From: Arctopsyche grandis
Taxonomy: Eukaryota > Arthropoda > Insecta > Trichoptera > Hydropsychidae
Assembly: GCF_051622035.1 (NCBI RefSeq)
Contig: NC_135356.1
Location: 30,108,290-30,172,289, forward strand
Direction of reading: 5' to 3'
DNA: 64,000 nt
Shown here: positions 19,580 through 63,455 of the stretch, piece after piece
How the letters are laid out: each line of letters begins with the position of its first letter
Numbering within the stretch: the stretch's first letter is position 1
Translations under genes and position numbers: made by a program
The notes under the pieces: generated by a model
What the model saw: only the letters and a program-made list of their open reading frames with translations
Databases searched by the model: none
Told to the model about the DNA's origin: nothing

Positions 19580-20652
19580 TGTTACGGGGACGAGTAGGAG
19601 ATTATAATAATTAAAAACATAATTTTGATATGCTTATATTATATTTTCCAAAGCAGTTTGTATTTACAGTAATAAGCTTATACTATTTACGTATAATCAC
19701 AAGTACTAGTTACTTATTAAACAGTTCAGTTCAATCACAAGTTACTAGTTAGCAGTATCGGCTCGTGAGAATTCATAGTAGAGGTTGATTATGGTCAACG
19801 GTGATTAAAAGAAAACAAAAATAGCGTGCATATGTACTATACTAGTAGGCTGCAGCCCCGCAGCCCATGCCGACGACAAAAATAGCATGAATTTGTATTG
19901 TACAGGAAGGTCTGCAGCCCCGCAGCCCATATGGACGAGCCGCCACTGCTAGTTAGGCAGTTAAATCGCAAGTTACTACGTAGGCTGTTTAATCGCAAGT
20001 GCCTTAACAAAGGGCTGGTGGTTGTATATGTATGTATATCAAATCAACCAATCAGAGAACAGTGAAACATATGTATGTATGTCTAAATCCGAATATAGCT
20101 AGAGTTTAACTTTGAAACAAAGTATTTTAATAACAATCTGGGGGAAGAAGTAATACAACTTAAGTTTTTACATACATATGTATGTGTGATATACAGGGTT
20201 TATGTAATAAGTATGCTAGGGGAGAAGTCAATAAATCGTAGTCGTAAGACCATGGCAAAGGTTAAAAGTGGAGTTAAAACAATATCTAGTAATTTTAGAT
20301 CTGAAAAGAAACATGCGTTTGCAATAAAGAACGATGTGGGGTTGACAATTATTACATATATCACTACTTTAAGATATAGAAAAAAAAACATTGAAAATTG
20401 TAAAGACGTGTGTTTTGAATAGACACATTGTTGCAATAATGTGCGTGCTGATAAGACAATAATAACTTAAAATCTGGATAGAAACATACGTTGGCAATAA
20501 AGACCTTTGTGGGGTTGACAATATTATCATTAGTAGAAAAATAGAGTAATGTTGAGATTTGTAAAGACGTGTGTTTCAAATAGACAAGCATACATACATA
20601 TGCTAGCAATAATACGTGTGGGGTGAGTATTTGGGAGAGCATCCACATTACA
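19580..20652 (+). mobile_element. solo LTR, TGTTACGGGG family (LTR-3), 1073 bp
   Basis: Begins TGTTACGGGGACGAG and ends CATCCACATTACA (TG...CA). It is flanked by a perfect 4-bp duplication ATGG (19576-19579 and 20653-20656). The unoccupied site is at about 49530, where GTATGGTAAGCGAG is uninterrupted. A 4-bp duplication suits a Ty3/gypsy-type LTR. Inside, about 165 bp ending in GTAAAGACGTGTGTTT is tandemly duplicated in this copy but single in the copy at 54874. No coding region. Confidence 0.82.
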
Positions 20653-22199
20653 ATGGTAAGCGAGAAAAAAAATTTGTTTCAATCGAAGAAGAGGAGGTTC
20701 GAAATCCTTTTTTATTATTGAATATTATTCCTTAGTCAAGTCGTTAGAAAAGTCAAGCTTTAAACCATAAAAATATACATGTATGTAGTATATCTTTTTT
20801 AAATTTATTTATCGATCGATTTTGGATAAAAATATCGATATAGTATGACATTTATGAATGGAAATTTGAAACAATTACAATATATGTACACGGTTATGTC
20901 GCAGGGCTAATGTAATCGAATGTGAATCGAATGAAATTGATTTCAGATAAGAGAAAAAATAATTTTAAATAAATAATAAGTTGAGGAAATTGTATCAAAA
21001 GTCGATATTCTGAACGGAAAGCAAAACGTCAAAGCGCTGACGTTAACAATGCGTGACGTCACACTTTTCAACCATAGCTCTGTATTTTGAGACCATGTCT
21101 TTTTATTTACAAGCTTTTTTTAACTCTTTATTCTATTGCATAGCGTGTAAACATGTCGTCAATATACTAAGGTATTTCCTAACTTCCATTGTACTATACC
21201 ATCAGATCAATAACAGAAGCAAAAAATATTATTTTTATATGACAGATTTGCTATCTTATAAACGGTAAGCGGACTATTCCGCAAAAGCGATCACGCGCAA
21301 GTCGAAGAATTCAAGGTCTTTAATAATATTACTGTTAGCTTGGCTGTCCATAACATGACGTTGGCAATTAATTTTATCGTCTAATGGTGCTTACGGACTA
21401 AACCAACGACGATTTTGGGCCAACTTTTTAACCAGCAGGATAAAACCAGTAGCGTACAAAATATCTAAATAAAAATTAAATTTAAAAATTGAAATTAAAT
21501 ATCAAAATTAAAACTATTTTTATTATATTAAAATTAAATTCAAATATCAAAATAAAATTATAATCGTTATATTAAAATTAAAATAAAATTATAATCGTTA
21601 TATTAAAATTAAAATAAAATATTGAAAGTTAAAACAGAACATGCCCAATTTAAATAAATTTTCGAGATAATCCTCGACTTTTGTTTGTCGAAGATGTTTT
21701 GACTTACGAAGATACGCACAAAGATCAAAAAAAAATCAAAGAATTATTATTTTTACTTCCCCGTAATGCACAGTTACTGAGAATATATCATGTATTAGTT
21801 TGGGTGATCCAGTGATCGTCGCAATCTGTTGCGTTGTCGGTACATCAATCGAAATTTTTTTAGTCTTCAATTGTTTCTCTCGTCGAAATAAATCAAATAA
21901 TTAAATCCATCTCAGAGGTAAAATTTATCGGATAATGTGTGATTATTGATTTTATTTCGACGAAAGAAAAGAAAACCCTTTGACAAATCACCGACGGTTT
22001 TTTTGTTAAATGTTTCATCGACGGCTGAAATACAGTAGTATATCATGACGACTTTTAAGAAATAATAAGATTTTTTTTCGCTCGTAATCAGAGAAATTAT
22101 AATATTTTTCTGGTTGTAATATTTAATCATCGAACAAATGATTCGATTTACTTTTTTTTCGATTCATAGGCGCCGATTTGATTTTTTTCGATTCAATGG

Positions 22200-22510
22200 A
22201 TTCAAAGTCCCATTGGAGGTGCAAGGGGTGCAGTTTCATGGAGCCCCGCCAGGGGCGCTACAGGGGGCGCGGCCCCATGTCGCCCCGAAGGGGCTGCAGA
22301 GGGGTGCAGCCTCATGGGACGCAGAGGGGCGAAGCCCTTAACAGCAATTGCTCATGGGGGCGCAGAGGAGCGAAGCCATAAAAGGCAATTGCTCATGGGG
22401 GCGCAGAGGGGCGAAGCCCTAAACGGCAAAGGCTCAGGGGGGCACCGAGGGTGAAGCCCGAGAGGACAAAAGGCTCAGGGAGGGTCGAAGGTGAAGCCCT
22501 AGAAGGCAAA
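22200..22510. repeat. GC-rich tandem repeat array
   Basis: Diverged units of roughly 40-47 bp around GGGGCGAAGCCCTAAACGG, with islands rich in GGGCGC. It ends in poly-A/poly-T at 22508-22530. The equivalent block in the other duplication copy (56945-57180) is in reverse orientation. Confidence 0.8.
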
Positions 22511-23164
22511 AAAAAAAATTTTTTTTTTTTAATAAAATGTTTACTATTAGATTAGTCATGTTTAAGCCGTTTTTTATTATAAATACTGAGCGAAGCCGGG
22601 TAATACAGCTAGTATAAAATATATATATACGTATTCGATAAATAAATTTATAATATCAACAACTAACGTATTTTATATTAAAATTTTAGGCATGGGGCTA
22701 AAGGTTTATCCTAGAGAATTACTTACAATTTATACTTATATATTATTACATATAATACGGTCAAATCATGCATTTTGTGTTTTAATAATTAAGTTAAATT
22801 ACTGTTTTACAAATAAATAAGCTTATAATATTATTTTCATATGTGATTAAACGTTGTATTATTGAAAAAAATGTGTGTATTACAAATTAGTAATGGCCCC
22901 CACCCTGCTAATTTTTTCGATCCGCCCCTGCACCTATCAGATACTCTTTGATAGAAAAATTATCAATTTGTGTTTTTTTTTCTTCTAGTATTTCTCTACT
23001 TAACATACATATAGACAGATATTTTGATTAAATCTGAAATTGGATATAATAAGAATTTTTGTGTTAATTGTGAATTTTAATTTAAATAATATATAATAAT
23101 GTTAAAATTATATGACAGAAGGAAAATTAATGATATTTCAATCATGTGTGGTATTCTTAACGAC

Positions 23165-23415
23165 GGTAAACGGACTACTAGTCATATGTAAACCAGTCCC
23201 AGGACAACCGATCGCTCTAGATCGGTCACACGTGATCACCCGTCACACTAAAACTGGTCACGAGAAAACTGGTCACACCGTAAAATCGGTCAACCAGTTT
23301 TCTCGTGACCGATTTTAGGATGTGACCAGTTTTAGTGTGACGGGTGATCACGTGTGACCGATCTAGAGCGACCGGTTGTCCTGTGACCGGTTCACATTTG
23401 ACTAGTAATCACCGA
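23165..23415. mobile_element. palindromic MITE
   Basis: Two arms of about 110-120 bp meet near 23285. Each contains GATCGCTCTAGATCGGTCAC or its complement, and CACTAAAACTGGTCACGAG. The ends are ACTAGTCA-like. A near-identical copy is at about 58300-58550 in duplication copy 2. Confidence 0.8.
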
Positions 23416-23424
23416 ACCCTTAAC

Positions 23425-23660
23425 GGCACCATCGACTGCTCTGAGTTGGTGAGTTTAGTGAGCTTCCATGTGCCGGCTACATCAATTAGATGTAACCATC
23501 TTTTTGATATTCTTCTCACCTGAGGCACGTACCAATTTAATGCTTTCGTCCCCTGTCACCAGGGGCATCAAGCTCCTCAACCAGATTTCTATTAGATTGG
23601 ATTTGTTTAATCTAAAATATACTGATCTGTTTGAGGTATTTTTTAGTTTGAGAACATAGC
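23425..23660 (+). pseudogene. LINE C-terminal fragment, frameshifted
   Basis: One frame gives ELVSLVSFHVPATSIR (about 23437-23484). A second, shifted frame gives SPEARTNLMLSSPVTR and then LFNLKYTDLF. This resembles the C-terminal segment of jockey/R1-like LINE proteins, which carry an ARTN...SP..R...LFN pattern. An AT-rich TTTTTATATT-like tail follows (23690-23890). Related copies are at 37905-38140 and 58565-58800. Broken by the frameshift and stops; family assignment is tentative. Confidence 0.5.
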
Positions 23661-23895
23661 ACCTTATAACATATTATATTTTTATATTCATATTTTTACA
23701 TTTTTATATTTTAAAATTTTTATATTTTTATGTTTCATATTTTTTATATTTTTATTTTTCATATTTTTATATTTCATGTTTTTACAATTTTGTATTTTAA
23801 TATTTTATATTTTTATATCTTACATTTATTTTTTAATTAATATATAATAATAATATGATATAATAATAATAATATAAAATAATAATAATTCATTT

Positions 23896-39390: not shown

Positions 39391-40185
39391 CAGTGGCGGA
39401 CTGGGACTGAAATCAGTGCATGCCAGGAGTCAAAGGGGGCCCACCCAGGGTTAAAAGAATTCCAACAAAATAAAGTAAAGGGGACCTTTCCCCCTAGCCC
39501 CCTATGCCCCCCCCCCAAATCGCGTCCCTGAAAAAAATGCATAATATTTTCAATTAATGTTACTCGAAAATCGGGATTTTGGGGAGGAGGCCCCTATCCT
39601 ATATTTCTATTTACATGGATGTGTCTAGATTAGGAATAGATTTTATATTCGGAAACTTTTTAAAATTGTGTATTTAAATCTTACTATATCGTCGAAGTAT
39701 AATCAAATGTTATTTTGAAAGTATGAAGTAAATTTAAATCGCTGGTTGATGATGAATCGTCCTATCAAAATTTTTTTAAGCAATTCAGTTTATATTATTC
39801 ACGGAAATTTGTTTATTACCTTTTTTTATTTCAGTAGGTAGTTGTTACATGGGTATTGGTATATACACAATATTGACGTTGGACAATTGCGTGGGCCCGG
39901 CAAAAGGGCCCACGCAATTGTTGAAACTCACTTTTGAGCCTAATAAAAAAAGTTAACCGATCCTTGGGCTGTTAAAGCAGGTATTAGCTGTTTTTGTATA
40001 TCGTAAGAAATTTGTTTTGTTTAAATATCCAAACTTTAGGTCCCAAAGTGCAATATCCTATAAATTTTTACACACGTGAAATAGTTAAAAAGTTATTTAA
40101 TTTTACTGATGGCCCATATTTTCTAACAGATAGTGGGGCCCACATGCCATCGGGCATGTTCGCTTGTATGGCCAGTCCGCCACTG
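39391..40185 (+). mobile_element. hAT-like non-autonomous element, copy 2, 795 bp
   Basis: Termini CAGTGGCGGACTGGGACTG at the left and the complement CCAGTCCGCCACTG at the right. It is flanked by a perfect 8-bp duplication TACATATG (39383-39390, 40186-40193). The interior has paired GGGCCC-rich segments (GGGGGCCCACCC, GGCCCGGCAAAAGGGCCC) and no transposase frame. Confidence 0.88.
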
Positions 40186-40367
40186 TACATATGTATGTAC
40201 ATATATTAAATACAATATATTAAACACTAAAAATATTAAATACAATCCAACGGGTATACGAATAACAGAAGGGTTGGCTTAAAATATTTTTATTTTTTTA
40301 AAAATTTTTTTAGTTGATCGTCCGTCATATACAAATATACAAATATATATACATATTTAGCGACAGT

Positions 40368-40620
40368 CCGTTTTTATATATAGTATACCGAGCGAAGCCG
40401 GGTAAAAACACTATTAAGTAATAAATAGAAAGATAATTTAATAAAGTAATAAGCCGAGCAAATGCGACACGCTCTCTGAAATATCGACGACATCCCCCCC
40501 AAGGCAATCCGATGGGTACTGCGGGAGTTATGGAGGGGTGTTTGGCTCGCCAAAGATTGGAACACGCTGTATTTGCTAGCTCCAACAAATCCGGGGTGGA
40601 TTCTCTAGTGTAACGCTGCC
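40368..40620 (-). mobile_element. palindrome-arm relative directly upstream of RMI1
   Basis: Inverted relative of 38848-39130. It starts with ACCGAGCGAAGCCGGGTA and ends with CTAGTGTAACGCTGCC at 40620, only 70 bp before the RMI1 ATG. It must therefore lie in the RMI1 promoter or 5' UTR. Confidence 0.75.
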
Positions 40621-40690
40621 AATGGGAGTTGAATGACAGTTCTCAATTGTCAAGCAGTGCTTTCGTTGCGTTTCAATAAAATCTAATCAA

Positions 40691-42983
40691 ATGGATTTCA
40701 TTTCGGCGGCCAGGTCTCACCTGAAGACATTAGGCATGGAGGTCACCGAAGATTGGCTGAAAGAGTATGCCATCATACGTTTACAATATAATAATCAATT
40801 ATTCGCGATTCATGTTTTCATACCTATCCACAGTTGCGTCGACTACTTCTGCGACAAAATGAAAAATAAAAAAATCGAGATCGAAGAACTCAACACACTG
40901 GTGAAAGGTCAGTGGTTGCTCGCCGACCTGCGGGAAATATCTCCGGGATGTTTACCACCGAATCTGAACAAGCAAGTTAAGATTACAATCGACGGAACGT
41001 ACGCACTACAAATGAACTATATCATGGACATCGGTATTAACACACACGAGGTTTAATTGTAACACGCACCCATTAGAACGCCCTATATATATATATATAT
41101 ATATATTTGTTTAACTTGTGTAGGTACTCCGTCACACCAGCAGTTGCAAAAATTGGCCAAAGTCGACACTAAGAAATGGGAACCATCACCGCAACGGTTA
41201 TACTTTTCATAATTTGTTTTTTACTTTATATTTTTTTCATGTACTAACGTATTGTTTTATATAGTATGTTTAAGGTTATATTGACTGATGGCGAACAAGA
41301 AATAAGCGGTATTGAATTCAAACCTGTAAGGTATTTTAATACCGACCTACTGCCGGGAATTAAAATTCAAATTAGAGGTACGTTATTGTAGTTTGTTTCA
41401 ATATTAAATGGATGATCGTATATGACCTGTTTGATCGATGACCTGTTTGATTTCAGGACCGGTTGATTGCCGACGAGGAGTGCTCATGTTGGAGGAGAAA
41501 CATGTGAAGATTTTAGGCGGAGAAGTTGAAGAGTTACTTGAACAAAACAGTTATAAAAATATTCTAAGACGCAAAGTTGGGCAAAGTCACAACTCTGGAG
41601 TACTTCCGTGTAAGTTTATTAACCATTTGCCCGCGTCACCAAATTTAGCGAACATGCCCTGTACGCGGTTGCTTTTTTGCGGATTTTGCTATCGCGTTTT
41701 CGACTATAAATATAGGTTGTAATATTTTATAAATTATTTTAACCTATATTGAATTTTTTTGACTGCTGCCATCTATTGAATTTGGTAAAGTATACATTTA
41801 GTAATATTTTCAACTAAGTTATAAAATTTTAACACAATAGACGGCTCTTATACAGGTTGGAACTTCCAAGACATCTATGCGTGTCTCACGCGCTGAGGGC
41901 ATGTTCGCTAGGACATGTATAGTAGTCGTACGCGGTGGAAAGGTTAATATAGCAAGAAACTCCATACAGACACAATTTAAGAAATGTAATATTAGTTTAC
42001 TTTTGTCATGGTAACCTGTCTGATAATTGAATGTTACAGCCACCGAATCCACTCAAGAGGTTGTAGAAATGGATACGACCAATGCAACAACATATTGTAC
42101 CCCTACTGTGAATACCGACACAGTAGTTGGAACATATGGCACCCCTACTGTGAATACCGACACAGTAGTTGGAACATCTAGCACCCCTACTGTGAATACC
42201 GACACAGTAGTAGGAACATCTGGCACCCCTACTGTGAATACCGACACAGTAGTAGGAACATCTGGCACCCCTATTGTGAATACCGACACAGTAGTTGGAA
42301 CATCTTGTACCCCTACTGTGAATACCGACACAGTAGTTGGAACATCTGACACCCCTACTGTGAATACCGACACAGTAGTAGGAACATCTGGCACCCCTAC
42401 TGTGAATACCGACACAGTAGTTGGAACATCTTGTACCCCTACTGTGAATACCGACACAGTAGTTGGAACATCTGACACCCCTACTGTGAATACCGACAAA
42501 GTAGTCGGAACATCTGACACCCCTACTGTGAATACCGACACAGTAGTCGAAACATCTGACACCCCTACTGTGAATACCGACACAGTAGTCGGAACATCTT
42601 GTACCCCTACTGTGAATACCGACACAGTAGTTGGAACATCTGACACCCCTACTGTGAATGTTACAGCCACCGAATCCACTCAAGAGGTTGTAGAAATGGA
42701 TACGACCAATGCAACAACATATTGTACCCCTACTGTGAATACCGACACAGTAGTAGGAACATCTGACACCCCTACTGTGAATACCGACACAGTAGTCGAA
42801 ACATCTGACACCCCTACTGTGAATACCGACACAGTAGTTGGAACATCTGACACCCCTACTGTGAATACCGACACAGTAGTCGGAAAATCTGACACCCCTA
42901 CTGTGAATACCGACACAGTAGTCGAAACATCTGACACCCCTACTGTGAATAACGACACAGTAGTCGGAACATGTGACACTTAA
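40691..42983 (+). CDS. RMI1: RMI1-like subunit of the BLM-TOP3A-RMI dissolvasome, with repetitive tail
   Basis: Six exons: 40691-40764, 40834-41033, 41124-41196, 41265-41377, 41457-41609, 42040-42983, all GT-AG and in frame, giving 518 residues. The 69-bp first intron has no stop and keeps frame; removing it restores the family-like WLKDCVDYF. The N-terminal helical domain is about 1-50. The OB fold (about 52-200) has QWLLADLREI, YALQMNYIMDI, FKVILTDGEQEISGIEF, LPGIKIQIRG, RRGVLMLEEKHVKILGGEVE. These motifs fit RMI1 better than TDRD3, which shares the N-terminal architecture. RMI1 stabilises topoisomerase III-alpha and promotes double-Holliday-junction dissolution in the nucleus. Residues 225-518 are tandem 14-residue units instead of the C-terminal OB fold of vertebrate RMI1. 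The stop codon abuts a MITE fragment. The start is the first ATG in frame with the N-terminal domain, 70 bp from an upstream transposon. Confidence 0.87.
42099..42978 (+). repeat. 42-bp coding minisatellite in RMI1 last exon
   Basis: Nineteen complete 42-bp units encode TPTVNTDTVVGTS plus a variable residue (D, G, C or S). There are 13 units at 42099-42644, a partial unit (TPTVN), a second copy of the exon leader (TATESTQEVVEMDTTNATTY, then C), and 6 units at 42726-42977. The period is a multiple of three, so the frame is kept. Variants include VVET, VVGK, DKVV, TPIV and NND. Units ending SC then SD recur at positions 5-6, 8-9 and 12-13, a trace of multi-unit duplication. Two minus-strand frames also stay open, purely because of the period. 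Confidence 0.97.
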
Positions 42984-43112
42984 GTTCTCGTTAAGACAAT
43001 ATTTCGCATGGGTGAATTTTGATTGATGGAAGTTTTGGGTGCCAGATCTTCCGTCATCGAGATTTTAGTGACCTGTGCGAGATTGCATTTTGCGGAATAA
43101 TCACCGAACCGT
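42984..43112. mobile_element. half MITE abutting the RMI1 stop codon
   Basis: Starts with AGTTCTCGTTAAGACAATAT, as at 16775, and ends TTTTGCGGAATAATCACCGA, the terminus of the 11450 family. The opposite half is absent: the coding array lies where it should be. The junction falls at the TAA stop codon (42981-42983). Confidence 0.7.
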
Positions 43113-43965: not shown

Positions 43966-46900
43966 TCAATGTTCATTATTCAGGCCACGCACAACATACT
44001 CCTGGATCGTATTCATTATCAGATCGTTTAGAATCGACTCGGCGACCGAGTTCTTTATGTTCATTTCGTACTCCTCGATATTAATCCATTCAGGTTCTTC
44101 GTCTTGTAGCTCGCGTATCAGAAGCTCGTCGACGTGATCTTGCAACTTGTGAGCACAGTTGATGAAAATGTTGTCTTTGAATGGCCGACTGCCAAAGCCT
44201 AGGCATTGCATCGTCGCAGTCTCGACCGACGAGCACACGTCGTTCCTCGTCTGCTGCAGTCGCTTCTGATACTCCCAAGGATAGGACCGTTTGTTCGCAT
44301 TCTTATACTTGTGACTGAACAGCTCATTGCACAAGTCAACGAGAAACTGTTTACTAGGGTTGAGCGAATGTGATTCCTTGAACGTATCGCAACAATTTTT
44401 GAAGGTTTCGCTTGTGTCGCAGAGATTCGAGTATGATCGGGATGCAAACGACTCCCAAATGTTTTCGTAACACATTTTCACAACTTTAGAGATGGTTTTA
44501 CTCTCTGAGAAATGATCTCCATTGCATTCGCCGTTGGCCTTATCTTCGGGGGGTATGTACGGTGGCGGCGGCTTGTCCGGAATCTCCCGGACTATGAAAT
44601 ATGGAAGTTGAGACGTCTGCTGCTCTAATAATGCTTTAATCTGGAAAGATATATGCAACAATGAGCAAAATTGATTTATAGGATTTACAAAAGATATTTT
44701 GATAAATAAAATTATAATTTTTTTCTAATAAAAATGAAGAGGCACAAACTAAAACCATAACTTAACCCATTGAATGCTAAACAACGATATATCGTTGCGT
44801 ATAAAAACGGCGAGAATGGCTAACAAAGATCGTTGTTACGCCACAATGGTCGTATTTGAATACTTACTTGTGAGCCAGTGCATCATTGATATGAAAAATT
44901 TTGTACTAATTTATTATTATTACATATACATACATGTATAGGTATGTATTTATATCAAAGCAAACTTTTTCTATGCATTCGGGTAGTTTCATAATTCCAC
45001 TATTTTGTATCTATAATAATATACAATAATAACAAAAACAATAGAAAATCGTTTTCTATTATAGAGGTCACGAGCCATCGTGCAATTAAATGCACACCAA
45101 ATGTTTACGATACCAAAATCATAAACTGTCACCCCTAGTGCATCTCACTCGCACGCTCGCAGTTACAACCACGAAAGAGAGAGAGAGAGAGAGAGAGCCA
45201 CCAAATACCCGTTTCAAAAATGTATTGTTTCAAATATAATGCACAAAAGTAAAGTATGGTTAAATACATATGTTAATAAATAAAACATTTTTTTTCTTTA
45301 AAAAACTTTACAAATGTTAGCATTTCTCGCTAGGATTTTGAAAAGCGTCGTAGCCGCAAAGGGTTAAACACACGAATTATGATGATGATTTAAAACTACA
45401 AATGTCAACATTGTATTCAAAGAATATGAAATAAGAATCAGAAATAAAGATTTAAATCCATCAAAGACGAGCAATATTATTCACCTCCATCTCAATGGCC
45501 AGCTGCTTCTTCCTCAATTCTTCAGCCTCTTCTAATTGACTGATAGATTTAGGCGCTATCGGTGGTAAAGACACAGACGGTAAAATCTTATCTGAAACAC
45601 AAAAACGAGATTTGACCTTTACATAATATATATTTGTACATATGTAGCAACAATTATCATAATATTTTAATACATATATCATAATATTTTTGTTGAAGAT
45701 TGATTGCTTACCATATAAATGTTGATCAAGTTCATTATCGTCCATCTTGTTTGCACTCATTTGCAAAACGCTCGAGAGATCATTGACTAGCAGTTTACTC
45801 GGAACCAACTTTTGAAGTTTCGTTTCCGTGACTTGAATATGGATTGCTCCCGATTTGATTCGATTTGAATTGAAGAATTCTCTACAGTCTCTTAAGGATG
45901 CCGTTGTATTTGACTGAAGATCATTGACATTGGTTAAGAATACCAAATTCGACGTCGATGACGGAACATTCTCGGAGATCAAGCATTTGAAGTGAACGTT
46001 TCTGAGATACTCGTCCATATTAACGGTCACGTTGTTGTATTTTAACTTTATGCGTGCCGAGGCATTGTCGCCGAAGCAGGTGCGTTTCACGTCTTCGATG
46101 AACCTTCCGATAGTATTTGAAGGAATATTATTTACGCCTGATGAATTTGATTGGTTTTGAACGTTACAACAGACTACATAATGCTTAGTGTCAAAAGTGA
46201 ACTCTAACATTATGTGAAATTTATTAAGCAAGGCTACGATTCCGTTGCTGAAGACGGATTCTCGACGATTGGGCGTACTGTGAAAAAAGAGGCTTTTACA
46301 CAGTCTGTCGCCAAATGGTGACGGATTTCGTCGGCAGAGTTGATTTACACCAACTAGAGGCGATAATTTTACAGTGCGTTTTATGTGCTTCGCATTGATA
46401 GCGTTTGTAATGAACGAATAAGTCTTTCCGAAGATTGAAAACAGCACTTTATCGCCGTCGGAATGGTCAGAAATCGCTGTTGAATTGTTTACTGGAGTCA
46501 AACTAGGCTGTATGTTTGAATATTGCATTGTAAATGGTAATTTTTCTGTATTTTTAATAAATTCTTCATCTATTAGTGGTTTTGGAATTGGATCATCATC
46601 GGTGATTTCAATAATCCGCTCGTTTATAATAGTGGACGTGACGAGTTTCATCGAACAGTCTAATTTGTCGTCTGGTTGTAATATTGGTTTTTCGTTGATG
46701 GGAATTTTGGCAGGGTCGTCTCGTCGCTGGTCTAAGATTGATTTCTGTGATAGCTCTTTCAAAATGCCGACTATTTCTGAATTCGAATGTTTCCGATTTA
46801 TCAGATTTAAGGCGGTCGTGTTCAATTGCAAATCGAAATGCAATAGAAGCAGGTCGTTTAACGTTTTTTTATGATTGCATAAAAGATTTCGATCGTTGCA

Positions 46901-49900
46901 CGGTGTGTCCGGGATTTTATCGCCGATAGTGATGTCGTAGCATTTTAAAGGTAACTTTTTTTTAGTATCGTCCGGTGAAACCAGGGTACTTCTCAAATTG
47001 ATGCTTGAAGAGTTAACGCCGAGCACCGTTTTGAAGTACCGTAACTGTCGGAGCAGAGCTTTCTTTCTCTCGTTGAAGAGTTTCTTTTGAAAGTTTTTCA
47101 TCAGCTTGATCTCGTTATACTCCTGTTGCAATTTTATCAAAATTCCTCTCTGTTTCTTCTTCAAAGAAGATAACTGCTCGAACGCATTGCTGCCTTTGAT
47201 TTTCAAACGGAGCAATTCATGCTTTGCCGAATTTATAACAGCTTTTTCTTTTATGTTCAGTATCATATTTATGTACTTCGAAAGCAATTCCTCATCACGC
47301 GAATGTTGATCAATCTGAAATGTAAAATATATTTCAATTATTATTTTATCTATATACGAAGAATCAATAGATGAAGTTTAGTGATGTCAATTTGTACTTG
47401 AAATCGATTCTTGATTATGTTTTAACACTATGGTGACCGCTGACTCATATCTGTGTCATGTTGGGTACACAACGCTTACTAGCAGCTGATACATATATGA
47501 TTCACGACTGCCCAAACTGTTTCAGTTCACTGATATATTCTTGTATCACGTTTTCGTCAATCGTTTGTGGCCGATGATACAATTTTGTATACAAAAATAT
47601 ATCAGTGGACTGAAAAATATATTCTGCGCGAAAAATATATTCGCACAGTCGTGAATCATGTATGTATCAGTGGCCAATATGCATTCTACAACTTACATGA
47701 TACAAATATGAGTCAGCGGCCACCATTTTATTAATGAACATCATTGTACTATTTGTCATACAAGTTGCTTTGAAAAAGTTTTTATTTCAAGGGTTTCTCA
47801 TTTGCCTTTCGGAGTGGAAAAAATGTAAATGAATTCTGATTTTTGACAGTACTTATTTTGTTTATAATAACACTAAGAATACTTGGACTTTAGATGAACA
47901 TAGGAAAAACAAAGATTATGATGGTGGATCGTCATGGTGAGGACGGGTGCTCTATCTGGTCTTGAAGTTGTAGTTGTAGTTGAAGTTATTTATCTTGATG
48001 ACGGAGGGTATGAAACCGAAATAAAAAGGCGGATTGGCATGACGAAAACCCCAAAGTCGAAACTGTGCAAAATTTGGAAAGCCCGGGGAAAGACCATCAC
48101 CATGTCTACGAAAATGCGTCCAGTCCAAGCTTTGGTCTTCCCTGTATTAATATATGGAGTGGAAACATGGACGGTACAAGCTCTAAAACGGCAAACAATA
48201 GACTCTATTGAGATGTAGTGTTGGGATGCTTAGAATCAATGCCTTCATCCAGCAAAAGTTGAAGGTTGGCGATAGGCTATCATCTATTTATCTTAGGCAT
48301 ATCCTCCAGTTGTTTGGGCAAATCGCGAGGTGAGACCAGGAAGCATTGAGGGAAGTAGAAGAAGAGGACGATCCTCAACAAGATGGAGTGACCAGGTCAA
48401 GGCTGCCATTTGGGAAAGCTGTAGTCGAGCTACTGCGAGACGCGGGGTGTCGAGAAAACTTGAGGACCATGACAGGCCGCATTATGACACGTAAGGAAAG
48501 TGACCGGAAATAAGCTTTTGTACGAATCTGTTTCAATAATTATCGTGAGATAAAACTGACAAACTCTAAAAGGTAATGATTTACATATTTAGGTTCATCC
48601 AAAACCATCCATAGAAACAAATAAATTTTTCAATATCAGTCCTTTGAAACTCATGACTATTCAACTGATAACACTGTTCGACACGAAAAACGAGATATGA
48701 CTTTTCTTATAGATCTATGCCCAGTGAACACGAATCTGGTAATAAAAAGTGTTGATTGGCTCGAGATTCAGAGATATATGTGCTTTTTAAATCGCGCGAT
48801 TTTTCTATATCTTGGTGTTGTTCGGTCGATGCATCTAAATCTGTTAATTTCCTGTTCAAAATTAATATTGGAATCTACAGTCGGGTATTTTATCTTTTAT
48901 TTGTAGTACTTTTCAGCTTTCAAATCTCTCTAAGTAGTCGTCCAGTTCAAATCAAAAGTCAAAATTACGTATTTTCACTTGGGATTTTTTCCCACTGTTA
49001 ATACCATATTATATTGAGTATTTTCTATTGAAACATTTCTATTAATACCATGAAATAAATGAGTATTTTTATATCAAAATTTAACTTTATACAACATCAT
49101 TGACTCATTATGGACCACCCGAATTTTCCGAATACGTTTGTAAATTAAACATAACTCCTAAACCTAACCTAAAACATCAATTAAATTAAAAATTGGAATA
49201 TAGCTTTGTCACAGTTGTATTTGAATGTATATCTCAAACTGTGCTAATTGCTGTATTTGTATTTAAACATACATATATTTCAATATATTTTCACGTAAAA
49301 AACGATATCTATCTTATAGATCATGGTGTTATTTTATTAAATTGACACACATACAGAATAAAATATAAAAAAAAAGAAAGCAGTACAGTGAAATAAAAAA
49401 TATACGAATATAAATGAAAATATTATATTCCATGTACAGTGAGCACATTGTATTTATACTTAATATGAATAAATTTTATATTTTATATGTTAAATCATTT
49501 GAATGAAAGATTCAATTTGAGAAATATGTATGGTAAGCGAGAAAAAAAATGTTTCAATATCTGGAGGTTCGAAATCCTTTTTTGAATATTATTCCTTAGA
49601 ACGAAAAGTCAAGCTTTATACCATAAAAACATATGTATATCTTTTTTTAATTTATTTATCGATATTTTGGACAAAGATATGCTATGACATTTATGAATGT
49701 AAATTTGAAACTATGTATATCTTTTAAATAATAATTTTTGTATAAAGTTTGGAGAATTTAAAAACATACATAATTTTACGTACACCGCCGAGTAAGTGCA
49801 ATCGGATTAGGCCGAGTAGCATCCCAGAGACTGTGTGACCGTTATAATTGGTTTCAAAGATTATCTCCAGACTAAGTGCAAGTAGGCTAAGCAATGGCCA

Positions 49901-54873: not shown

Positions 54874-55776
54874 TGTTACGGGGACGAGTAGGAGATTATA
54901 ATAATTAAAAACATAATTTTGATATGCTTATATTATATTTTCCAAAGCAGTTTGTATTTACAGTAATAAGCTTATACTATTTACGTATAATCACAAGTAC
55001 TAGTTACTTATTAAACAGTTCAATCACAAGTTAATAGTTAGCAGTATCGGCTCGTGAGAATTCATAGTAGAGGTTGATTATGGTCAACGGTGATTAAAAG
55101 AAAACAAAAATAGCGTGCATATGTACTATACTAGTAGGCTGCAGCCCCGCAGCCCATGCCGACGACAAAAATAGCATGAATTTGTATTGTACAGGAAGGT
55201 CTGCAGCCCCGCAGCCCATATGGACGAGCCGCCACTGCTAGTTAGGCAGTTAAATCGCAAGTTACTAGGTAGGCTGTTTAATCGCAAGTGCCTTAACAAA
55301 GGGCTGGTGGTTGTATATGTATGTATATCAAATCAACCAATCAGAGAACAGTGAAACATATGTATGTATGTCTAAATCCGAATATAGCTAGAGTTTAACT
55401 TTGAAACAAAGTATTTTAATAACAATCTGGGGGAAGAAGTAATACAACTTAAGTTTTTACATACATATGTATGTGTGATATACAGGGTTTATGTAATAAG
55501 TATGCTAGGGGAGAAGTCAATAAATCGTAGTCGTAAGACCATGGCAAAGGTTAAAAGTGGAGTTAAAACAATATCTAGTAATTTTAGATCTGAAAAGAAA
55601 CATGCGTTTGCAATAAAGAACGATGTGGGGTTGACAATTATTACATATATCACTACTTTAAGATATAGAAAAAAAAACATTGAAAATTGTAAAGACGTGT
55701 GTTTCAAATAGACATACATACATATGCTAGCAATAATACGTGTGGGGTGAGTATTTGGGAGAGCATCCACATTACA
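54874..55776 (+). mobile_element. solo LTR-3, second copy, 903 bp
   Basis: Same ends and same ATGG target duplication as 19580-20652 (54870-54873 and 55777-55780), so it is the same insertion carried along by the duplication. It is shorter because one of the two internal copies ending GTAAAGACGTGTGTTT is missing. Confidence 0.82.
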
Positions 55777-56819
55777 ATGGTAAGCGAGAAAAAAAATTTG
55801 TTTCAATCGAAGAAGAGGAGGTTCGAAATCCTTTTTTATTATTGAATATTATTCCTTAGTCAAGTCTTTAGAATTTTAAATAAATAATAAGTTGAGGAAA
55901 TTGTATCAAAAGTCGATATTCTGAACGGAAAGCAAAACGTCAAAGCGCTGACGTTAACAATGCGTGACGTCACACTTTTCAACCATAGCTCTGTATTTTC
56001 AGACCATGTCTTTTTATTTACAAGCTTTTTTTAACTCTTTATTCTATTGCATAGCGTGTAAACATGTCGTCAATATACTAAGGTATTTCCTAACTTCCAT
56101 TGTACTATACCATCAGATCAATAACAGAAGCAAAAAATATTATTTTTATATGACAGATTTGCTATCTTATAAACGGTAAGCGGACTATTCCGCAAAAGCG
56201 ATCACGCGCAAGTCGAAGAATTCAAGGTCTTTAATAATATTACTGTTAGCTTGGCTGTCCATAACATGACGTTGGCAATTAATTTTATCGTCTAATGGTG
56301 CTTACGGACTAAACCAACGACGATTTTGGGCCAACTTTTTAACCAGCAGGATAAAACCAGTAGCGTACAAAATATCGAAATAAAAATTAAATTTAAAAAT
56401 TGAAATTAAATATCAAAATTAAAACTATTATTATTATATTAAAATTAAATTCAAATATCAAAATAAAATTATAATCGTTATATTAAAATTAAAATAAAAT
56501 ATTGAAAGTTAAAACAGAATATGCCCAATTTAAATAAATTTTCGAGATAATCCTCGACTTTTGTTCGTATTAGTATGGTATCATGTATTAGTATGGGTGA
56601 TCCAGCGATCGTCGCAATCTGTTGCGTTGTCGGTACATAAATCGAAATTTTTTTAGTCTTCAATTGTTTCTCTCGTCGAAATAAATCAAATAATTAAATC
56701 CATATCAGAGGTAAAATTTATCGGATAATGTGTGATTATTAATTTTATTTCGACGAAAGAAAAAAAAACCCTTTGACAAATCACCGACATCCGACACCGA
56801 CGGTTTTGGCCTTTAAAAA

Positions 56820-57245
56820 ATAAGTCGAATCAGCGCCTATGAATCGAACAAAAATAAATCGAATCATTGGTTCGTTGAAGGCTGCGCCCCATAAAGTGCT
56901 TAAACATGAATAATAATCTAATAGTAAACATTTTATTAAAAAAAAAAATTTTTTTTGCCTTCTAGGGCTTCGCCCTCGGTGCCCCCCTAAGCCTTTGCCT
57001 TCTAGGGCTTCGCCCTCGGCGCCCCCATGAGCAATTGCTTTTTAGGGCTTCGCCCCTCTGCGCCCCCATGAACAATTGCTGTTAAGGGCTTCGCTCCTCT
57101 GCACCCCATTTGGCTGCGCCCCTTTTGCGCCCCCTTCGGGGCCCCATGAAAATGCACCCCTTGCGCCCCCGCTGGGACTTTGAATCCATTGAATCGAAAA
57201 AAATCAAATCGGCGCCTATGAATCGAAAAAAAAAATCGAATCATT
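56820..57245 (-). repeat. GC-rich tandem array, inverted relative to copy 1
   Basis: Units contain TAGGGCTTCGCCCTCGGTG, the complement of the array at 22200-22510. The segment is bounded on both sides by GCGCCTATGAATCGAA-type sequence, whose complement borders the array in copy 1. This indicates a local inversion. Confidence 0.75.
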
Positions 57246-57483
57246 TGTTCGATGACGGCTGCGCCCCATGATTTGACGACATTAATAATTTAAATTATTT
57301 TCCTCCTCAAAAAAGGATAAAATATTGCACAAGGAACAATATAATCGCAGCAATAGAAGTGTGTGATTATATCGCTTGTCAAATTGAAGAGCGGTTTAAG
57401 TTCACAAATCATTTGTCTGCTGCAAAATTATTTTTCCCTTGTTTATACACTAATATTTCATTTTCAGATAATATATAATTTCA

Positions 57484-57660
57484 GATATATAGAAGTCGAC
57501 GAAAGCGTTAAAGCATACCCAATGCTAGATAAACAACGTCTAAAAGCGGAATTAAAGGCATTGTATGAACTTCATCAATTTAAAAATATTAACAGTGTTT
57601 ATAAAATATATAATTTGTTTCGTGATACGGGTGTTGAAAATTCGCTTATTATTTTTTTTA
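57484..57660 (+). pseudogene. hAT transposase fragment
   Basis: Encodes ESVKAYPMLDKQRLKAELKA, LYELHQFKN and NLFRDTGVENSL. The YP-LDK-RLK-EL--LY pattern is that of the segment just before the C-terminal dimerisation region in ZMYM1-like hAT transposases. The reading then runs into repeat sequence. It is absent from duplication copy 1. Confidence 0.45.
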
Positions 57661-58299
57661 ATAAAATGTTTACTATTAGATTAGTCATGTTTAAGCCGTT
57701 TTTTATTATAAATACTGAGCGAAGCCGGGTAATACAGCTAGTATAAAATATATATACGTATTCGATAAATAAATTAATAATATCAACAACTAACGTATTT
57801 TATATTAAAATTTTAGGCATGGGGCTAAAGGTTTATCCTAGAGAATTACCTACAATTTATACTTATAATACGGTATATTATTACATATAATACGGTCAAA
57901 ATCATGCATTTTGTGTTTTAATAATTAAGTTAAATTACTGTTTTACAAATAAATAAGCTTATAATATTAATTTCATATGTGATCAAACGTTGTATTATTG
58001 AAAAAAATGTGTGTATTACAAATTAGTAATGGCCCCCACCCTGCTAATTTTTTCGATCCGCCCCTGCACCTATCAGATCCTATTTGATAGAAAAATTATC
58101 AATTTGTGTTTTTTTTTTCTTCTAGTATTTCTCTACTTAACATACATATAGACAGATATTTTGATTAAATCTGAAATTGGATATAATAAGAATTTTTGTG
58201 TTAATTGTGAATTTTAATTTAAATAATATATAATAATGTTAAAATTATATGACAGAAAGAAAATTAATGATATTTCAATCATGTGTGGTATTCTTAACG

Positions 58300-58550
58300 A
58301 CGGTAAACGGACTACTAGTCACATGTAAACCAGTCCCAGGACATCCGATCGCTCTAGATCGGTCACACGTGGTCACCCGTCACACTAAAACTGGTCACGA
58401 GAAAACTGGTCACACCGTAAAATCGGTCAACCAGTTTTCTCGTGACCGATTTTAGGGTGTGACCAGTTTTAGTGTGACGGGTGATCACGTGTGACCGATC
58501 TAGAGCGACCGGTTGTCCTGTGACCGGTTCACATTTGACTAGTAATCACC
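58300..58550. mobile_element. palindromic MITE, second copy
   Basis: Near-identical to 23165-23415, including GATCGCTCTAGATCGGTCAC and its complement, with a few substitutions (for example CACGTGGTCACC for CACGTGATCACC). Confidence 0.8.
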
Positions 58551-58564
58551 GAACCCTTAACGGC

Positions 58565-58800
58565 ACCATCGACTGCTCTGAGTTGGTGAGTTTAGTGAGC
58601 TTCCATGTGCCGGCTATATCAATTAGATGTAACCATCTTTTTGATATTCTTCTAACCTGAGGCACGTACCAATTTAATGCTTTCGTCCCCTGTCACCAGG
58701 GGCATCAAGCTCCTCAACCGGATTTCTATTAGATTGGATTTGTTTAATCTAAAATATACTGATCTGTTTGAGGTATTTTTTAGTTTGAGATCATAGCACC
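58565..58800 (+). pseudogene. LINE C-terminal fragment, second copy
   Basis: Same as 23425-23660 with small changes (TTCTAACCTGAGG for TTCTCACCTGAGG). Broken in the same place. Confidence 0.5.
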
Positions 58801-58998
58801 TTATAACATATTATATTTTTATATTCATATTTTTACATTTTTATATTTTAAAATTTTTATATTTTTATGTTTCATATTTTTTATATTTTTATTTTACATA
58901 TTTTTATATTTCATGTTTTTACAATTTTTTATTTTAATATTTTATATTTTTATATCTTACATTTATTTTTTAATTAATATATAATAATAATATAATAT

Positions 58999-60901: not shown

Positions 60902-63122
60902 CAGTGGCGGACTGGGACTAAAATTAGTGCATGCCAGGAGTCAAAGGGGGCCCACCCAGGGTTAATATGTCCCCCCCCCCCATATAACAAAATTTTCTTC
61001 TATTCATCACGCTAAAAATCAAGGGTAAAAAATAAATAATATTTTAAAAAATGGCAATAAACAAATTTAGGTACAAGAAAAATGGCAAAAGTAAAATAGA
61101 TCCATAAATTACATTGTATATTTCGTTTTAATTCTTGTCCTAGGTAAATAGAATGCATCATAAAAAAAGCGACATAAAAGCTACTTTTACTTTCGGTATA
61201 AAACAATCAGGGACGTCATTTCAGCTTTTTCTTGGGGAGGGCAGGCAAAGATTGGTCAAATTGAATTTTTTTTCAAAAAATTTTTTTTAATATTGGAATG
61301 AAAATGGAAAATATTCTTTGCATACAGCTTATTGAGTATATAAAATATGTAAAAAATAAGCTTATTTTTGAAAAAAAAATATGTAAAATTTTTTTTCCAA
61401 AAATCTTCACATAATCGATCACTGATCACGTTTACATAATATAGAAAAATGTGTGTGTTTCTGTGTGTCTTTTTATTATTTTATATATGGATATGTATAT
61501 ATAAAATTATTTTTATCTCAACCAGAAGTAGTACTTTTACCCTATAAGATCGAGGTATTTATATTTTTTTCTCGGAAACTTTTTGACGTATTGAACTGAC
61601 ATTACATATCTATAATTATAAACCTAGTGCCAAGTTATATATAAAATTTCGTGAACACCCGTTAGCCGAAAGTGACAGTTTACTGGATTTTTCTTCCACT
61701 ATTTTAATCGACCCTTTAAATATGTCTGATCTTCACGATTTTATGTATAATTCCTTGCATGAATGTTATGAAAATATAATAAAAAAATCATCAAATTTAA
61801 TTAACCAGAAGTGGGATTTTTTCCTCTTAAAAAAGTCAAAAAAAATTTTTACCACACCCCTGAACGTATCAAGCTGAAAATTTATATTTGTATTCTTTAT
61901 GTACTAAATTTGATAAGGTTTTGGTCAGAAAGCAATTTTGTTAAATAACTAAAACTTTTTTTGGACCGAATTCATTACACATGAAGTTTAAATCCATTTA
62001 ATTCGTTGTTTTGTGAGAGAATGGACGTCTTCAAATACATAAAATAAAAATACGAAAAATAAATTTATTTGTGATTGAACCGATTCAGTAAAATATTAAT
62101 TTAAAATCTTTCTTGAAAACAAAAAATATACGAACTTTCGGAAAAATAAACGTTACACATCTGTTTTTGAGACAAAATAAAGTAAAGGGGACCTTTCTAT
62201 AGAATGAACAATTTCTAAGAATTTTACCCAAGGCATACATACCACTTAAAAACCAAAATATACTTGCTATGAAAATTTTTTTTTTCAAAGCACATAGCTT
62301 GGATTATTTTATTAGTTACCCAAAAGTAACATACATAAGAAATAAATTTAGCATTCATAGATCCATAGTATCTCCATAATCATTTAATTCATGATATTTT
62401 CTAAATTCACACTATTCCTTAATTTAGGGGGGCGAGTGTCTCCCTATGCCCCCCCCCCAAATTACGTCCCTGAAAAAAATGCATAATATTTTCAATTAAT
62501 GTTAATCGAAAATCGGGATTTTGGGGAGGGGGCCCCTATCCTATATTTCTATATACATGGATGTGTCTATATGAGGAATAGATTTTATATTCGGAAACTG
62601 TTTAAAATTGTGTAAAATCTTACTATATCGTCGAAGTATAATCAAATGTTATTTTGAAAGTATGAAGTAAATTTAAAATCGCTGGTTGATGATGAATCGT
62701 CCTATAAAAATTGTTTTAAACAATTCAGTTTATATTATTCACGGAAATTTGTTTATTCCCATTTTTATTTCAGTAGGTAGTTGTTGCATAGGTATTGGTA
62801 TATATGTACATAATATTGAGGTTAGAAATGGGCCCGGCAAAAGGGCCCACGCAAATGTTGAAACTTACATCGAGCCTAATAAAAAAAAGGTTACCGATCC
62901 TTGGGCTGTTAAAGCAGGTATTAGTTGTTTGTGTATATCGTAAGAAATTTGTTTTGTTGAAATACCCAAACTTTAGGTCTCAAAGTGCAATATCCTATAA
63001 ATTTTAACACACTTGAAATAGTTAAAAAGTTATTTAATTTTACTGAGCGCCTATATTTTCTAACAGATAATGGGGCCCACATGCCATCGGGCATGTTCGC
63101 TTGTATGGCCAGTCCGCCACTG
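60902..63122 (+). mobile_element. hAT-like element, copy 3, 2221 bp
   Basis: Termini CAGTGGCGGACTGGGACT and CCAGTCCGCCACTG, with a perfect 8-bp duplication TATATAGC (60894-60901, 63123-63130). The outer 130 and 650 bp match the 795-bp copy at 39391. The centre adds about 1.4 kb of AT-rich sequence without a transposase frame. It ends in the same GTATGGCCAGTCCGCC segment. Confidence 0.88.
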
Positions 63123-63455
63123 TATATAGCAAAAGGTAATACAAAGCTACAAAAGCAATTAATTTTTTCAATGTCCTTAATTTAGTTCACTCGCCATTAG
63201 GTGGGAAATCCTTTTTAAATCTTCTGTCTTAGTTTAAGGGCTATTTGCAAAGACATGTTATAACATTTATCAGTCTATGTTACTACGCCATCTGTTGATA
63301 TCGCGTCGAAAAATAACTAAATAAAAAAATTTACTACTATTGGTTTGAAACTCGGCTACTGCTGGTTTGAAACTCGAAATTAGGTGAATTTGTCTTTCAA
63401 TATAAAGATATTAGCTGAATTTACCATTCGGTCTATAGATTTTCAGTAGAAGCAT

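Follow-up and report, generated by a model that had tools for sequence, protein, structure and literature searches.

The N-terminal helical domain and the first OB fold of RMI1 bind TOP3A in other animals. As far as the consulted extracts of the respective reports go, the insertion loop of RMI1 (Val95-Ser132) is tied to TOP3A binding and decatenation (PMC5296760), the Caenorhabditis elegans allele rmh-1(tn309), in which the second OB fold is lost, has fewer univalents than jf54, a null-like allele, and keeps partial function (PMC4807110), and the second OB fold of Arabidopsis RMI1 was reported to be unnecessary in somatic and meiotic recombination (PMC3814364). The extract of a further report states that RMI2 is missing from most insects (PMC6849265). 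On the side of tandem repeats, 23% of human minisatellites and satellites were described, in the part of the source consulted, as derived from transposable elements (TEs) and as expanding by local duplication (PMC3389668). A repeat-tailed or duplicated RMI1 in insects was encountered nowhere in the literature searched, which comprised that outside subscription journals.

The window analyzed here is a stretch of 64,000 nucleotides of the Arctopsyche grandis genome (C2:30108290-30172289; assembly of 475.7 Mb in 189 contigs). It carries a plus-strand gene whose first 224 predicted residues we assign to RMI1. They match the Pfam families RMI1_N_C (E 2.3e-33, 115.4 bits) and RMI1_N_N (E 1e-6, 29.7 bits), each above its cut-off of 23, in keeping with the original prediction that the N-terminal domain and the first OB fold are intact. 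Against solved structures, human RMI1 (4cgy) was matched at E 6.9e-36 and 127.1 bits, versus 2.7e-12 and 50 bits for the best TDRD3 chain. TDRD3, defined by an OB fold followed by UBA and Tudor domains, was rejected as an identity on account of these lower scores and of a separate TDRD3-like gene on contig C11, which has matches to the RMI1_N_C OB fold and to UBA, while no Tudor domain was detected within the pieces of it that were scanned; the window gene itself does not have this domain order.

Exons 1 (40691..40764), 2 (40834..41033), 3 (41124..41196), 4 (41265..41377), and 5 (41457..41609) were placed by a test of splice combinations together with alignment to a second RMI1 locus on contig C3, while exon 6 (42040..42983, closed by the stop codon TAA at 42981-42983) was delimited by the same test and by a listing of repeat units. 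With exons 1 and 6 held fixed, 1 of 12 combinations yields a single open frame, encoding 518 amino acids. The predicted join from 41609 to 42040 is corroborated by the C3 copy, where both splice sites are present around a 105-bp intron and the frame continues. Exon 3 is 24 bp shorter than its C3 counterpart, and the difference falls in the TOP3A-facing insertion loop; aligned to the human protein, with the loop limits given in the extract of PMC5296760, this loop counts 25 residues in the window gene, 33 in the C3 gene, and 38 in human RMI1. Intron 1, which measures 69 bp, is open in frame in both copies (window 40765-40833; C3 locus L009 5834-5766); if it were retained, 23 residues would be added and no stop encountered.

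Most of exon 6 is a coding minisatellite, in the sense of an in-frame tandem unit of 10 to 100 bp. TRF reports a period of 42 at 42099-42979 with 21.0 copies and a score of 1241, the highest of its 60 rows for the window, and our unit listing resolves 20 unit starts into 19 full 42-bp units and one 15-bp partial (42645-42659), in agreement with the 19 units originally predicted. The exon opens with a leader (copy 1, 42028..42098, which includes 12 bp of intron end with the acceptor AG), followed by 13 full units and the partial (42099..42659), a second leader copy of 71 bp identical to the first (42655..42725), and six more full units (42726..42977). The array is thus interrupted by 66 bp after the partial unit; partial and interruption add up to an 81-bp interrupted unit, and all unit lengths, this one included, are multiples of three. 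The frame runs through the array from the first TPTV at residue 225 to the stop after codon 518, and the 20 Thr-Pro predicted for residues 225-518 were counted there. The entire tail comprises 314 residues, is rich in Thr and Val, and has a net charge of -39. Since only 1 of the 126 single changes of the consensus unit creates a stop, and since one antisense frame is likewise open across the entire array (352 amino acids), the open frame is by itself weak evidence of coding. Pfam matches on the array were dismissed as chance (Trns_repr_metal, 18.4 bits for a cut-off of 22.8; Scytalone_dh, 19.9 for a cut-off of 27).

The locus on C3 contains a complete RMI1 gene of 7 exons and 496 amino acids, with matches to RMI1_N_N (8.4e-7), RMI1_N_C (1.4e-35, 122.6 bits versus 115.4 in the window), and RMI1_C (3.5e-26), and no 42-bp array was found at this locus. 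Searching the genome with RMI1_N_C returned five matches, namely, two exons in the window gene, two in the C3 gene, and one on C11, whereas RMI1_C returned a single match, on C3. The RMI1_C OB fold is absent from the window copy both in this search and in a tblastn search of the window with the C3 protein, in which no C-terminal remnant appeared at E below 8 and the sole match to that part had E 8.5. We conclude that the window gene is a shortened second copy and not the main RMI1 of this genome; the original prediction of a repeat tail on RMI1 therefore stands as to family, gene model, join, unit count, and frame, and has to be corrected as to which RMI1 is concerned. Because its first five introns are common to both copies, a processed retrocopy was ruled out. 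Queried with 161 bp from exon 6 (leader and first units), the genome returned the window array and one C3 site (87% identity over the 70-bp leader), these counts being lower bounds, and gave no sign of a satellite family elsewhere. RMI2 was not detected in the genome, the best match (22.7 bits for a cut-off of 29.4) containing an internal stop, although a split or divergent gene could escape such a search.

The block homologous to C3 RMI1 spans 40635..42109 (L009 5964-4815; blastn, 85% over 1,021 columns and 93% over 166, complemented by alignment) and represents a partial duplicate of 1.15 kb which ends within exon 6. About 10 bp upstream of it ends a dispersed repeat (40385..40624) with several more copies inside the window; the shared end near 40624 was judged by eye from a four-sequence alignment. 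Intron 5 contains a 321-bp insertion between TTAA copies (41623..41943) which, according to blastn and alignment, is absent from C3 and which, from its TTAA target and CC..GG ends, we take to be a piggyBac-like MITE. On the 3' side, a copy of a dispersed foldback element (42965..43112) covers the end of the last unit and contains the stop codon of the gene. Bases 42970-43112 have at least 55 matches in the genome, from 40 scored of 1,480 first-look candidates. Alignment of 12 copies shows that the full element, which has a terminal inverted repeat, begins further to the left; the window copy is accordingly left-truncated.

Elsewhere in the window, tandem arrays with matching consensus lie about 35 kb apart (about 19815-23889 and 55104-58964, e.g., 19815-19930 and 55104-55219), which hints at a large duplication, and another dispersed repeat occurs at 39500-40191 and 62442-63128 with 92% identity. 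The region 43966-47377 holds, on the minus strand, two long open frames of 252 and 638 amino acids that belong to a neighboring gene; its 3' end faces that of the RMI1 copy, and its product presumably resembles a GANP/xmas-type protein.

The 42-bp unit is chimeric, consisting of RMI1 linker and of GGAACATCTGGC, the latter identical to the element consensus. Suitably rotated, the monomer and the C3 linker agree at 30 of the 32 bases aligned on either side of a 9-bp gap, with a score of 43 where 2,000 shuffles reached 26 at most, and the last 12 bases of unit 4 followed by AC, GGAACATCTGGCAC, agree with the element consensus at 14 of 14 (28, against a maximum of 21 in as many shuffles); from these two matches it follows that the unit spans the RMI1/element junction. 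The C3 linker and the end-of-unit sequence of the element have only the stretch AACATCT in common, and its RMI1 and element copies lie one period apart in the present array, so that AACATCT on both sides of the junction was likely the seed of slippage. Units 4 to 6 and units 7 to 9 differ at 1 of 126 bases, which indicates that expansion proceeded also by blocks. The two leader copies are identical over 71 bp up to a left limit formed by TGAAT, a motif found both in the unit and in intron 5, and we read them as the result of a later event by which 71 bp around the exon 6 acceptor were copied into the array. The second copy provides a candidate second in-frame acceptor, with an exon start at 42667, 627 bp downstream of the first; branch-point-like motifs precede both (CTGAC 27 nt upstream of the second, CTGAT 20 nt upstream of the first).

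A stepwise origin may be reconstructed as follows. An RMI1 piece reaching from some 55 bp ahead of the start codon as far as mid-exon 6 would have been copied onto another chromosome-scale contig, between dispersed repeats. Its 3' end would have been fused to the interior of a foldback mobile element, which would account for the missing C-terminal OB fold and for a stop codon supplied by the element. Misalignment of the AACATCT at the junction with the RMI1 AACATCT just before ACCCC would then have produced an initial tandem duplication of 42 bp, which slippage or unequal exchange would have expanded into the array, with one capture of the exon leader through the 5-bp TGAAT match to intron 5. 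We regard this origin of gene and tail as well supported, since duplication, fusion, birth of the unit, and expansion can be read, or closely deduced, from the sequences themselves.

Whether the gene is alive was judged from its divergence from the C3 copy. The two differ at 17 of 378 aligned intron bases and at 76 of the 684 bases of common codons, with dN 0.131 and dS 0.084. Nonsynonymous differences (63.8 over 531.6 sites) exceed those of introns (Fisher p 7.8e-5 on rounded counts) and those of synonymous and intron sites pooled (p 1.9e-4), with no difference between the synonymous and the intron rate (p 0.14). Such an excess in exons is the reverse of what a decaying copy paired with a constrained one should give. 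Taken by itself, pairwise omega falls short of significance, both over 228 codons (maximum likelihood 1.90, p 0.053; bootstrap 95% range 0.89-3.25) and over the 188-codon domain part (1.63, p 0.19). In a comparison with human RMI1 over 181 columns, 39 sites differ between the copies, of which 10 match human in the window copy only and 8 in C3 only; with human as the sole reference for polarization, human-matching residues have been lost equally by both, which means that decay is no further advanced in the window copy than in C3. Its frame and its five GT-AG introns are intact, and in neutral simulations, for which indels were counted by eye in the window/C3 alignment, an intact frame survived in 2.1 to 2.6% of cases, or in 9.5% with half the indel rate. 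Together, the divergence tests, the human comparison, and the simulation argue with moderate strength that the gene is maintained. The N-terminal module appears to be so, and activity of the gene is moderately supported.

We therefore deem the window gene, with a probability of about 0.6, to be a young, C-terminally truncated RMI1 paralogue which may engage TOP3A and whose tail, born by slippage, is probably dispensable. Its expressed product would combine the N-terminal helical domain with the first OB fold, lack the second, and act as a specialized partner or competitor of full-length RMI1, the acidic Thr/Val-rich tail being tolerated as a largely disordered by-product and not preserved by selection as a kinase array.

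The strongest alternative is a young pseudogene, that is, a partial duplicate lacking a working promoter which has not yet decayed and whose array is junk, left open because its unit seldom mutates to a stop (the 1 of 126 changes given above). The copy is indeed partial and bordered by repeats on both sides, and since the copied piece includes only some 55 bp of sequence ahead of the start codon, a promoter is not assured. The two copies differ almost evenly among codon positions (22, 28, and 26), as neutral drift would also give, the array shows no constraint, and neutrality would leave the frame intact in 2 to 10% of cases. Retained splice sites, the exon excess, and the even loss of human-matching residues nevertheless speak against decay, and we consider a pseudogene possible but rather unlikely.

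A bolder version of the paralogue reading would have the two copies split their roles by positive selection, the window gene becoming a dedicated short RMI1 that addresses TOP3A through its shortened loop without a second OB fold and carries, depending on use of the acceptors at 42040 or 42667, an acidic tail of 314 or 105 residues. We likewise consider this version possible but rather unlikely.

A tail that functions as an array of proline-directed kinase sites, variable in length and tuning the RMI1 complex, would suit the 20 Thr-Pro, the net charge, and unit lengths that all preserve the frame. However, derived alleles among the units comprise 3 synonymous and 10 nonsynonymous changes, where 36 and 89 are possible, so that these counts show no sign of constraint or selection on the array. 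Moreover, a single Thr-Pro of the C3 linker was inherited and multiplied with the unit, which explains those of the tail, and C3 RMI1 has no array; a kinase array is improbable, and a function for the tail is not supported. Least probable of all, and by our estimate very improbable, is a tail folded into a beta-solenoid that serves as a rigid rod or self-assembling domain. AlphaFold2 does model a beta-solenoid from the single tail sequence (mean pLDDT 67.7, with 75-88 over much of residues 21-170; pTM 0.52), but confident yet unrealistic solenoids are described, in the extract consulted, as an AlphaFold2 artifact on perfect repeats, even of random sequence (PMC11795689).

The locus thus offers a stepwise view of how a coding minisatellite may be born, from a partial duplicate and a mobile element through a chance 7-bp match, slippage, and expansion to the capture of an acceptor. 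With a complete copy in the same genome, a natural RMI1 that lacks the second OB fold also serves as a ready test of the need for that fold. The case is, moreover, a caution that an unusual tail seen on a housekeeping gene may in fact be that of a second copy.

Among TE-derived minisatellites, the array stands apart in that its unit spans a gene/element junction and is coding and in frame. As regards the gene, human RMI1/BLAP75 (4cgy, 3nbi) and the C3 gene resemble it in the N-terminal helical domain and first OB fold, and it differs from both by the absent RMI1_C OB fold, the shorter insertion loop, and the repeat tail. C. elegans likewise has two RMI1 homologues in one genome, RMH-1 and RMH-2; unlike the window protein, these keep three domains, and the consulted part of the report mentions no repeat tail (PMC4807110). 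The tn309 form described there is a mutant allele, unlike the natural window copy. Arabidopsis RMI1 without its second OB fold has the same shape as the window protein, but it is an engineered construct in a plant; as the extract reports the second fold to be unnecessary there, activity is possible for a protein so built. Given this result, the worm allele, and the undetected RMI2, it is plausible by analogy that the short RMI1 of the window may still engage TOP3A.
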